NCBI RefSeq assembly: GCF_019059575.1 | Contig: NW_024881522.1 | Coordinates: forward strand, 434,001 to 498,000 | DNA length: 64,000 nucleotides | Source: Amphibalanus amphitrite | Taxonomy: Eukaryota > Arthropoda > Thecostraca > Balanomorpha > Balanidae | Direction of reading: 5' to 3' | Shown: positions 7,722 through 63,265 of the stretch, piece after piece | How the letters are laid out: the number at the start of each line of letters is the position of its first letter | Position numbering within the stretch: position 1 is the stretch's first letter | The notes under the pieces: model-generated | The model's input: only the letters and a program-made list of their open reading frames with translations | What the model was told of the DNA's origin: nothing | The model's database searches: none | Made by a program: the position numbers and the translations under genes

Positions 7722-9917
7722 TAGGGGAGAGCGGGGCCAGTTGAAACACGGGGTCAGATGAAACATGGCTTTATTTTCAACAGCATGCAACATATGGCGT
7801 TGCCGACACCACTGCGCATCCGCGCTCGACCACTTCCTTTGTCAACGGCGTTTGGGCGGCAAACGGACAGTAATTTTATTTGACACTTGTTTTTGTGTTT
7901 TTGAGGGGCGTTTGGGAGAAATCGTTCTTATGAATATTTTGTGATATCTCATATACCTTTGTTTGCTGAAAGAAGAACTCCTGGCTCCGGAATAACACCT
8001 TATTTGGCCCTTCATTCAGCATGATGCCGTCCCTCCAGCTCGTTTGACATGTGCTTTACGGCGCCTGCGAGATGGCGGGAGCGGATGGGGTCAATTGAAA
8101 CGCTTCTCTGAGGGTCAGTTGAAACAGGGCCACAGGCCGTTTCAATGGACCCCGGTGACCTTTGCAATGGTTATTGTTCAGGGGCTGTAAACATTAAAGG
8201 AAATAGTCCACCTTTGAAATGAGCTTTTAAACTGAAATAGTAGTTTAATAGAGCTCAATTTTTGACCCCTTTTTCTCCAGCCTTTTGCTTGAAAGCACAC
8301 TATAGCCTGAGATATTTCTCATTTTTCTCATCCGCCCATTTTACCATAGTCTATGTACTTTATGTCACCTATTATGAGGAACTTTGCACTTTTAGCTTTC
8401 CAACGACCTATTGAATGCAGCATTTGGAAAAGTAAACCGGACAAAATATTTCCTTAAGAAAGTGGCCTTAAAGAGGAAAACATCCCATTGTTAACCCGCG
8501 CCCCGTAGGGGGGGGCCGAAACGGCCCCCCCTGTCCTTTTCGGTCGATATCTCCTAAACGGCTGGAGATATCGCCACCAAACTTTCAGGATTCTCCGGGC
8601 ATCAATTTTACACATTGTGACCAAAAATTTTTCCAGAGGCTATGATAGGTTGGCCACAAATGACGTCAGAGTGACGTCATGTTCTGTCATTTTCGACCGA
8701 AAAAAGACCTTCGCGAGAAGACCTGTCAGGACTACAGCTTTGAAGATACAGAAAAATGATCAATACATAAAAGATGTAGAATTGACAGGGCTACAAAACT
8801 GCAATCTCGAATTTTTGAAATTTTTGAGTTTTGACCCCCGAAAATCAAAAAAGCATTTTTTTGGATATATTCGCCAAAAAATCCAAAAAGTTTTTTGAGT
8901 TTCGAAAACACCGGAATATAGGTGATAGTGCCTACCGTCTTCTATCTACATACCAAATTTCAGATCGATACCTCGTTTTTTGGCCAAGTTATAGCGAAAA
9001 AACTGTTCAAAAATGATGACGTAAAATTTTCAAACTCAATTTTTGGCAATTTTAGAACTCGTAGAGCAAAACGAAGACCACCATTAGACTCCCCGTGACG
9101 AGCTGCATCGAATCGATACCCATTTTATGCAAAAATATCAACTTTGAAATTTGACCTAATTTGACCTGACCTTGACCTGACCTTCACAAAAACGTGACCT
9201 AGGCTGGCCCCAAAGGCTGCCTAACCCACATAATCGCATTTGTCATGTAAAATGGACCATAAAACATGTATCACACGACACATTCATATTGTGACCTCCG
9301 GTGACCTGACCTCGCTGTGACCTGACCTGGTATCAGTGACCTCAGATAGCAAAGTATGTGTTTGACGAACAATGTACCATCGATGGTTTTCAATAAATTA
9401 CCAATTTACTCGCTTTCACAGCACATTTCTTGAATTGCCTGTGAACGGTGAAAATCTGACCTTTGACCTGACCTGTGACGTCATCGGTTTGACCTAGGTC
9501 AATGAAATTTGGTCACAAGGTAGTTCCCGGGTGGGGCTATCGAACGCCGTTTGAATTTTGAAAATCGGCCGGTAACTTTCCGAGATCTTAGGGGGGGGGG
9601 CCGAAACGGCCCCCCCCCCCTACGGGTGGTAGGGTCCGCCGGTAGCCCTACGGGGCGCGGGTTAAGGATAGGTGCAATTGACCCCATGGGCTGGTTCAAT
9701 TGACCCTCGCATCGGGGTCATTTGAAACGGGCGTAGAGCTGTTTTATAAGCATGCGTTTGGCAGCAAAATATGTTTGAAACATAATTTTACATATCTTAA
9801 AATAAAGCCAAAGGAGCATATTTTTTCATGGCATTGTGCATTTTTCGATATGACAACTAGATCTCGCTGTGCATTTTAATATATAAAAAGTGGTTCAACT
9901 GGCCCCGCTCTCCCCTA
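7722..9917. mobile_element. TA-bounded TIR element, interrupted by a TTAA element
   Basis: The left end reads TAGGGGAGAGCGGGGCCAG and the right end is its reverse complement, with TA at both outer edges (possible 2-bp target duplication). The words GTTGAAAC and GGGTCAATTGAAAC recur inside at about 7758, 8090-8145 and 9675-9740, echoing the tip. Removing the nested element 8491-9665 leaves about 1.0 kb with no transposase-like frame, so it is non-autonomous. A second family member lies at 44958-46814. Superfamily not assigned. Confidence 0.82.
8491..9665. mobile_element. TTAA-bounded MITE with hairpin ends (core CCG-CGG)
   Basis: TTAA lies at both edges (8491-8494, 9662-9665), with inverted tips CCCGCGCCCCGTAGGG. 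Just inside each end is a G-run/C-run hairpin whose core is CCGAAACGG at both ends. TTAA target sites with CCC-starting tips are the hallmark of piggyBac-type elements; no transposase frame is present, so this would be a non-autonomous derivative. The interior has two TGACGTCA-type sites near 8660-8680, many TGACC words (about 9150-9350), and an everted TGACCTAGGTCA near 9491. Interior homologous to the copies at 41450 and 62083. Confidence 0.85.
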
Positions 9918-10704
9918 CAGGAGAAAAGGCAGGCAGTAAACGTAAGATAAATTGAACGTTTGAAAAGATTGGAAAGAAGAAAAGCTCAGTGAAGTGAAGC
10001 TATTTGACATGAAAATAAAAGTAGGTAATGCGGCAGAATGCCGTAACAGAACACATCAACATTAGTTCCTGACGAGGGAGCGCGAATCGCGAAACAGATA
10101 AAAAACGGCGTGAGAAAAGTAAGGCAGACGGGCTCAAGATCACTATTATAGAATACGGTGTGAGCCTCTGACGGGGTGAGAACGAGACCCGATCCGTCCG
10201 TCAGCACCGGCCTGAAGCCTTTCAGCACCGCTATCGGTCTGAAAGGTAACCTAATGACTCAACACTGCGGGTTTTAGCGGCCGATCTAGCCACTCAGCTG
10301 GGACGGCGAGCTATTTCCGCCCATTCAGAGACTGACGGTGAGGTTGTGATGGACGCGAGAGGCCTATCGAGCCCTGTCGGTACCCCTCAGACCTGTCCAC
10401 AGCGGGTCCGCCCCTCCCCGCCCTCCCTCCCCGACCCCGCCGCTCGGCCCGCCCGTCCCGCCCCGCCCTAGTCCGCCCGCCCGCCCGACCGACACTCCCG
10501 ACTGAAAGTGGCGAATTCCTTCCATTCAGGCGTGGCATGCAAATCATAAGCCATACATTACTGCTCCACAATCGTATAAATATTTTCGTTGGATCGTCCT
10601 TTGTCGACTGAAGAGCCGGAACGGCTCAGGCAGGAGGTACTCCACCCAAAGGACGGGGCGAAGCGGCTCCTAAGGGGAGAGGCGGAGACGAAAGAGGGAT
10701 AGAA
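9918..10704. other. No gene recognised
   Basis: Ordinary sequence followed by a C-rich stretch (about 10390-10500) in which words such as CCCGCCCG recur. No domain-bearing frame seen. Confidence 0.4.
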
Positions 10705-62082: not shown

Positions 62083-63265
62083 TTAACCCGCGCCCCACTG
62101 GGGGGACTATTTATAGCCCCCCTCCCGTTTTTCTGCAATAACTTCCAAACCGCTTGACGGATCGACGCCAAACTTTCAGTACCTTCGGCTGCATTAATTT
62201 GACACCTTGTGTAAAAATTTGAACTTCGTAGCTACTATAGGTCGGCCGGAAATGACGTCAGAGTGACGTCATGTTCGTCCGATTTCGACGCAAAACATTG
62301 AACCACGGCAATCGCTCCCAAGAGCTCAGTTTTTAACCCAGATCCAATTTCTTTGCAGGAAAGGACTTAAAATTGACCGCGCTATCAAACTGTTATCTCG
62401 GATTTTCAAAATTTTGAAAATTTTGAAAATTTTATATAATAATATTCAAAATTTATATTCTTATATTTTTTTTCAAAAAGTTTTTGACTTTTCGAAAAAA
62501 CCGGAATATATGTGACAGAACGCATGATTATGACTAACTCTAGCAAGTTTTAGCTAAATATCTTAAAAAATGGCCAAGTTATACGCATTATTGCAAAAAA
62601 TTCACAATTATCAATTTTTCAAATCAATTTTTCAGTACGTATTTGACATCGTACACCAATATAAATGGCACCATCGTGTTCCTGAGCTCAAACTGCATCC
62701 AATAGACACCTTTTTTGTTGAAAAATTTTAACTTCAAAATTTGACCTTTTTTGACCTGAAAGTGACCTGACCTAAGCTAAATTCGACTCAAAATGACCTC
62801 GAATGACACAGACGACATCAAATTCGAAATCTATGGCCTAAATGGACCATAAAACCTGTGTCACGTGACCGACGGATGATATAATATTTTCGTGACCTGT
62901 GATGACCTGACCTTGACCTGAAAATCAAAGTACAAGTTTGGTACCCTCAGAGTATCTAGAGCATCTGTTCACGAGTGTGGGAACCAAAAATGAGCCTGAT
63001 CTGACTTGTAAGACGGCGGCCAGAGCCCAAAACGTGAAGAAGCCAAAATGCTAATAATTTTTACTTTGACCTGACCTGTGACGTCATCGGTGACCTCGAG
63101 GTCAATGAAATTAGGTTTCGCTCGACAGTTTTTCCGGGGCTATCAGACGCCGTTTGAATTTAGACGATCGGCCCAGTAGTTTCGGAGTTAGGAGGGGGGG
63201 GGCTATGAATAGCCCCCCCCCCAGTAGGGCGTGTTATACGCAGACCCCAGTGGGGCGCGGGTTAA
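62083..63265. mobile_element. TTAA-bounded MITE with hairpin ends (core CTAT-ATAG)
   Basis: TTAA at 62083-62086 and 63262-63265; both tips read CCCGCGCCCCACTGGGG. Hairpin cores are CTAT-tt-ATAG (left) and CTAT-ga-ATAG (right) within G and C runs. The interior is homologous to 41450-43436 and more distantly to 8491-9665. It keeps the paired TGACGTCA-type sites (62253-62271) and the everted TGACCTCGAGGTCA near the right end (63091-63104). 1183 bp, no transposase; it shows the empty site for the solo LTR in its sibling. Confidence 0.9.

Follow-up and report, generated by a model that had tools for sequence, protein, structure and literature searches.

The 64,000 bp stretch of the Amphibalanus amphitrite genome analysed here (contig NW_024881522.1, positions 434,001 to 498,000; hereafter the window) contains seven complete miniature inverted-repeat transposable elements (MITEs), E1 to E7, which are flanked by TTAA at both ends (7/7 in a search of the window) and carry near each end a palindrome bounded by a run of G and a run of C. 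We consider it probable that these are non-autonomous piggyBac MITEs whose end palindromes are read by each family's own transposase, so that the ends are matched within an element and different between subfamilies. We infer that the palindromes are bound by the cysteine-rich domain (CRD) of the transposase and that selection on this binding keeps the ends matched. The genome searched was the window's own (807.55 Mb), in which the window is G000:C25:434001-498000; L numbers (L001-L079) are labels of extracted sequence stretches. Published work is cited by PMC number.

The elements and the anatomy of their ends

The seven elements are as follows.

E1, 8491..9665, plus strand: MITE; tip CCCCGTAGGG, core CCG..CGG; palindromes at 8509-8531 (left) and 9591-9619 (right).
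E2, 18928..20107, plus strand: MITE; left core CGTTTTTCG at 18945-18965, right core CGCTTTTCG at about 20037-20055; right tip altered.
E3, 22547..23390, plus strand: MITE; tip CAGTGG; left core CGGATTTCG, right core CGGATGTCG (palindrome 23316-23344).
E4, 41450..43436, plus strand: MITE; tip CATGACTGGGG; left core CTCTACAGAG, right core CTCTCCAGAG.
E5, 43494..46964, plus strand: longer MITE with E6 nested inside; tip CCGCACATGGGG; core TGGTTGCCA at both ends.
E6, 45295..46332, plus strand: MITE within E5; left core CGGGTGCCG at 45317-45339, right core CGGGTACGA at about 46259-46286.
E7, 62083..63265, plus strand: MITE; tip CCCCACTGGGG; left core CTATTTATAG, right core CTATTCATAG (palindrome 63194-63221).

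The palindrome is present at both ends of all seven, as an earlier reading of the sequence (the original prediction) had proposed; E2, at first suspected to be incomplete, is included, its right end with the altered tip having been recovered only with a tolerant search. Of the eight hairpins in the 64 kb whose stem is perfect over at least 8 bp and has a G- or C-rich arm, seven are element ends, and a left-end pattern gave four matches in the window versus none across 100 dinucleotide shuffles. The proposed homology between the interiors of E1, E4 and E7 is likewise borne out (78-81% identity for E4/E7 and 65-74% for E1/E7), and about 780 bp of E4 (42059-42837) are missing in E7. No transposase remnant was found in the window elements below E=0.054 (tblastn with 32 transposase ORFs, the transposases of loci D and E described below not being among the queries).

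Each palindrome consists of two half-sites of about 3-5 bp on either side of an AT-rich centre, with the G-run outside the first and the C-run outside the second; the AT content is 84% in the core centres versus 42% in the arms (21 cores, hand-listed). In 91 left-end and 100 right-end rows from the genome, the median position of the palindrome centre is bp 28 from the left tip and bp 57 from the right tip, and that of the last base ahead of the G-run is bp 13 and bp 40, respectively. The right end carries an inserted stretch and a repeated tip segment, the tip repeat being visible in E1, E3 and E7. In the piggyBac element of Trichoplusia ni, each end is described as holding an internal palindromic repeat of 19 bp, whose axis lies near bp 25 of the left end; an insertion together with a duplicated sequence lengthens the right end by 28 bp (PMC7351741), and the repeat is bound by a CRD dimer and bent at an A-tract (PMC7351741). 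Complex ends of this type are found here, the palindromic repeat occurring at both ends and the right end exceeding the left by about 28 bp and having a segment duplicated. The first four bases at both ends are CCCT in E5 and E6, CCCG in E1, E4 and E7, CACG in E3, and CCCT and CCCG in E2; the terminal motif of the piggyBac superfamily has been given as CC[C/T]T (PMC2872659).

Cores as marks of subfamilies

With E1 as query, the best 40 of 3,477 candidates were all full length, 39 of them at 98% identity and the other being E1 itself. The left-end pattern gave 19,695 matches genome-wide (0 and 1 in reversed-pattern controls) and the right-end pattern 20,147 (controls 0 and 3), counted on the forward strand only, since reverse-strand counts were inflated by the variable gap; there would be roughly 39,000 strict left ends if both strands are alike. 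End types were sorted by hand from the first 100 rows per pattern, all on contig C1, of which nine overlapping repeats were removed to leave the 91 left and 100 right rows. They fall into about 25 tip/core types, and the types present at both ends mostly have the same or a close core. Because the matches to E1 form a full-length clonal family and the end rows fall into shared types, the core is the mark of a subfamily and not of a single copy. The idea of a core differing from copy to copy is therefore not supported, 40/40 scored matches to E1 belonging to one family; the contrary possibility named with it, that cores track a few clonal subfamilies, is right as to the tracking and wrong as to the number, about 25 types being not few. 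In viral contigs there was a single end-pattern match (L001), whose G and C runs are by eye unlike those of the window elements, and there were no matches to the shared interior 23-mer.

Agreement between left and right ends

When six arm positions, three per arm, are compared between the left and right palindromes, all six are equal in E1, E3, E4, E5 and E7 (E4, E5 and E7 registered by eye, a script having misplaced their G-runs), five in E2 and four in E6. Across 21 entries (subfamilies plus the transposase loci A, B and D, hand-picked and not all independent), 0.91 of the six positions are equal between left and right arms, versus 0.35 between entries, a value reached in 0/20,000 permutations, and arm symmetry inside the palindrome is 0.89 at left ends and 0.84 at right ends (each 0/20,000 permutations). 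Strict automatic scoring of 31 complete copies, one of them unreadable, found all six positions equal in 18/30; among the remaining 12, E4, E5, E7 and L041 are by eye register errors, and E2, E6, L051, L003, L058, L060, A and B differ. By eye, none of the 30 copies joins one common subfamily's core to another's. The agreement of the ends is thus strong and not absolute, and some large families have fixed mismatches (given below); the claim that each element bears the same core at both ends holds for five of the seven in full, and E2 and E6 depart from it.

The right core fits the left better directly than inverted in 6/20 entries (E1, CCCGCT, CGTATA, A, B and D), by 1-4 positions; the inverted-repeat fit is the better in 13/20, and there is one tie.

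Transposase loci with palindrome ends

The genome contains 116 scored matches to the transposase domain PF13843 (DDE_Tnp_1_7). Among the 30 best-scoring piggyBac loci (L010-L039), read with 1.5-kb flanks, G-run palindrome ends were directly evident in none: most have TTAACCCATTA-type ends, L019, L020, L034 and L036 have other ends, and no ends were seen within 1.5 kb of L013, L021, L035 and L037. The flank of L021 carries a G-run palindrome without a TTAA tip, and L037 was established on later reading as the middle of locus C. Five piggyBac transposase loci were nevertheless read with such ends, so that PF13843 does occur in candidate autonomous partners. Locus B and loci C to E were read starting from the protein of A, which as a genome query gave at least 73 matches; in L077 and L078 G-run palindrome ends were looked for and not found.

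A, L071: right-type end at 1343 and left-type end at 5317, with a 639-aa transposase ORF between.
B, L072, 233-4955: 666-aa open frame; copies at C33, C431 and C257 score alike.
C, L073, L037 and L074: left TTAA reads CTAA.
D, L075 and L076: transposase in two pieces, inside an L047-type MITE (L075 about 2462, L076 about 6675); flanked by a 4-bp duplication ATAA rather than TTAA.
E, L079: 610 to L076: 4882: MITE N1 nested inside.

The transposase of B matches T. ni piggyBac over residues 137-664, CRD included (E=1.3e-56), and the eight predicted zinc ligands of the T. ni-type cross-brace CRD are invariant in A to E and T. ni piggyBac. Transposases A, B, C and E form a cluster (SH-aLRT 100) that excludes 20 further piggyBac transposases from this genome, in a tree from which D, being in two pieces, was left out and in which the join of B and E lies between long branches; the C-terminal piece of D has 57-59% identity to A and C. 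The half-site is GTTG in A and C, GTC in D and GGCC in B and E, and on these sequences it appears to track transposase kinship. Together with the T. ni-like ends, these loci uphold the assignment to a piggyBac-type group. The autonomous partner that the original prediction had asked for is thus represented by five loci with such ends in the genome, none of which is an exact partner of a window subfamily.

Derivation of the MITEs and exchange of interiors

Two cases suggest how the MITEs may have arisen. L060 matches C over its left part (2-495, at 94-97%) and its right part (696-909, at 94-95%), and its middle (496-695) has no match among the stretches extracted; L069 matches E over 1-1025 at 86% and over 1055-1186 at 85%, the transposase region being missing. 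Judged by these alignments, some MITEs look like internal-deletion products of autonomous elements. E1 resembles the left arm of E, with 84% identity over 300-1014 and 70-76% at the E1 ends. L069 is also matched by the flanks of a nested insertion in L029 (7-3825), where a TTAACCCATTAG-type piggyBac of about 2.7 kb, with transposase, lies inside a CCTGAT-type MITE, the flanks overlapping at TTAA.

Interiors and ends do not always share a history. N1 (G000:C702:33975-34969) is 95-100% identical to L052 in every 60-bp window from 301 to 900, 55-70% identical in the first 300 bp, and unlike it from the right palindrome outward. One 20-bp interior start is common to 3,969 right ends genome-wide, and outside it lie two modules, ACCGAC in 14/25 and CCTGGCG in 11/25 of the matches listed. 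The informative sites of E1 side with L057 at 100-599 (109 vs 25) and with L069 at 600-1099 (96 vs 27). The divergence of E4 and E7, in contrast to these mosaics, is even along their length and without steps. In close pairs the ends diverge beyond the interior (identity of ends versus interior 0.56-0.64 vs 0.88 for L060/L061, 0.67-0.71 vs 0.81 for E1/L069 and 0.70-0.71 vs 0.80 for E4/E7); in distant pairs they do not do so consistently (0.63-0.69 vs 0.59 for E7/L069 and 0.51-0.55 vs 0.60 for E1/E7). Because mosaics stand beside the evenly diverged E4/E7 and the end differences of close pairs, divergence of end types and exchange of interiors both occur, and the combination of similar interiors with different ends comes at least partly from recombination.

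Proposed mechanism and its alternatives

Our working hypothesis is that a piggyBac clade has undergone a radiation inside a single animal genome and that the elements are its non-autonomous members. The end palindrome corresponds in place to the internal repeat of T. ni piggyBac, the site of the C-terminal zinc finger (CRD) dimer, so that each element would offer four equivalent half-sites, all contacted by a single surface of the protein. Once the CRD specificity of a transposase lineage had shifted, only elements whose half-sites had followed at both ends would be mobilized and multiplied, and because only these would spread, cores would come to be alike within an element and unlike between subfamilies. 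The MITEs would be born from autonomous elements via internal deletion, and recombination would swap their interiors from one end type to another, so that different end pairs come to enclose similar interiors. Such an account predicts symmetric palindromes, matched ends, sharing of cores across a family, tolerance at weak contacts and the survival of interior swaps that spare both ends. Recognition by transposase is the likely cause of the matched ends. A bolder proposal, which we advance tentatively and which in our estimate falls a little short of being probable, is that about 25 largely separate piggyBac recognition systems exist in this one genome, that CRD and palindrome change together, and that MITE families are born when an end pair takes over another's interior; if so, the matched end pair would be the unit of selection and the interior a passenger, and the palindrome/CRD pairs would form a natural code for DNA reading by this zinc finger.

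Several observations weigh against recognition by the transposase as the cause. In the N1 family the left core is CCTCAGGAG in 3/5 left ends (CCTTTAAGG and CTGAGAAG in the other two) and the right core is CCGATTCGG or a near form in 11 ends among the matches listed; GGCC is common to the outer arms, and only 3/6 arm positions are equal. The right inner arm has no match in the E6, A and C types, and in the CCTGCT type the right outer tip is CCCGGCT in 11/18 rows, the left tip being CCCTGCT. The agreement statistics draw on the hand-picked entries noted above. The distance from tip to palindrome centre shifts with the length of the G-run (24-39 at left ends, 51-65 at right ends), which fits badly with a fixed spacing unless the variation is largely slippage after insertion or assembly error, and the long G- and C-runs themselves are unexplained by the mechanism. 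As read, the frame is open through the CRD in only two of the five partners, B and E, being interrupted in A, C and D; the five partners form two kinship groups, which cannot separate recognition from common descent; and no exact autonomous partner of any window subfamily was found among the transposase loci read.

The mosaics invite an explanation in which the end pairs are old and stable and the interiors move among them by gene conversion or gap repair, so that the ends need have changed in concert little or not at all. The interior shared by N1 and L052 (95-100% over about 301-900) despite unrelated outer ends, the common 20-bp interior start with its two modules and the switch of E1 from L057 to L069 all speak for it. 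As an explanation of most of the pattern we think it possible but rather unlikely, since the stepless divergence of E4/E7 does not fit and the question would be shifted to the autonomous lineages, in which all four half-sites of the cores still differ; exchange of interiors complements recognition by the transposase and does not exclude it. A change at one end might instead be copied to the other, the two inverted ends acting as partners in gene conversion or template switching. This would produce agreement above chance, and the direct-orientation fit of cores in 6/20 entries could reflect flipping of the palindrome; we nevertheless judge it improbable. Mismatches are fixed in large families (the CCTGCT right tip, the N1 cores and the right inner arm of the E6, A and C types), which disfavours templated copying of ends, an option named in the original prediction, as an obligatory process, and in L003, a copy of the E1 family, the right core has changed and the left core has not.

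Selection may, finally, have acted on the fold and not on a sequence read by protein, the palindromes being extruded as hairpins or cruciforms for excision or end pairing. Long G/C stems fold easily, and the arms are equal at all three positions in 15/21 left and 12/21 right entries. A fold, however, needs no shared sequence between the ends, which agree far above chance, and the right palindrome is imperfect in several large families (e.g. CGGGTACGA); the pattern of foldback elements, with the fold kept and the sequence free between ends, is not seen here, where the arms agree in sequence. The excision hairpin described for piggyBac, moreover, differs in structure, being a TTAA hairpin formed at the tip of the transposon (PMC7351741). 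We regard selection on the fold, too, as having little probability; hairpin-dependent excision, another option of the original prediction, would not be needed, because a dimer reading the double-stranded palindrome would account for the data.

Relation to known systems

The closest resemblance is to T. ni piggyBac (LE35/RE63 ends; PDB 6x67, 6x68; PMC7351741), with which the present group shares TTAA, a palindromic repeat near left bp 25, a longer right end with a duplication and the same eight CRD zinc ligands. It differs in its half-sites (GTTG, GTC, GGCC and others, versus TGCGT as given for T. ni in PMC8086355), in the flanking G- and C-runs, in a tip that is often CCCG and in having about 25 end types in one genome. 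The piggyBat element of Myotis lucifugus (PDB 9c0f; PMC11707139) belongs to the same superfamily, and the two CRDs of its dimer are reported to bind a subterminal palindrome (PMC11707139); its CRD has another fold and its palindrome is unrelated and at the left end only (PMC11707139), and transposase B matches it over residues 173-540 only (E=4.8e-21), stopping at residue 540. The CMITE families of Acropora corals (PMC2872659) are likewise TTAA MITEs tied to piggyBac, with family-specific terminal inverted repeats (TIRs) and interiors more conserved across families than the TIRs, and one copy is reported to have another family's interior type (PMC2872659). They are about 100 bp long, and in the parts of that report available a G-run palindrome is not described and the explanation offered is not recombination between end types (PMC2872659).

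The kind of element is therefore already known from corals, namely piggyBac-derived MITEs with family-specific TIRs over similar interiors, and the statement that no described piggyBac group has such copy-specific matched hairpins went too far in view of the T. ni repeat (PMC7351741), the piggyBat palindrome (PMC11707139) and the CMITEs (PMC2872659). What seems new, within the literature searched, is the G-run palindrome clade, its approximately 25 end types in a genome and the mosaic exchange of interiors. In the open-access literature no description of a G-run palindrome group was found by title or abstract among the matches listed, and a search of paper texts for the printed tip letters gave no transposon paper by title among the matches listed. 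With about 25 end types and five readable transposase loci, the group offers a natural series for how a piggyBac CRD picks its site and lets one ask how new families escape cross-mobilization; if the pairs are truly separate, they would be usable as orthogonal piggyBac tools. A classification of MITEs by interior can disagree with one by TIR, because families whose outer ends are unrelated share interiors.

Other features of the window

Two further copies related to E6 lie in the window.

E8, 63493..64000, minus strand: resembles E6 (77%) and continues past the window edge; its right-type end, at 63493, is decayed.
E9, 47497..54267, minus strand: decayed copy resembling E6; a retroelement-like insertion separates its two pieces, 47497-47785 and 53712-54267.

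The insertion that splits E9 (47781-53711) has two repeats, 99% identical and 4,779 bp apart (starting at 47781 and 52560), and between them a minus-strand open frame of 1,135 aa (49127-52534) with a likeness, by eye alone, to BEL/Pao-type gag-protease. An open frame at 60015-60686 resembles by eye, no search having been made, an exon of a nicotinic-receptor-type ligand-gated channel. The window also contains an array of a 16-bp unit (4093-4590), minisatellites with units of 10-12 bp (27526-32165) and a tandem repeat with a 370-bp unit in about six copies (36046-38197).

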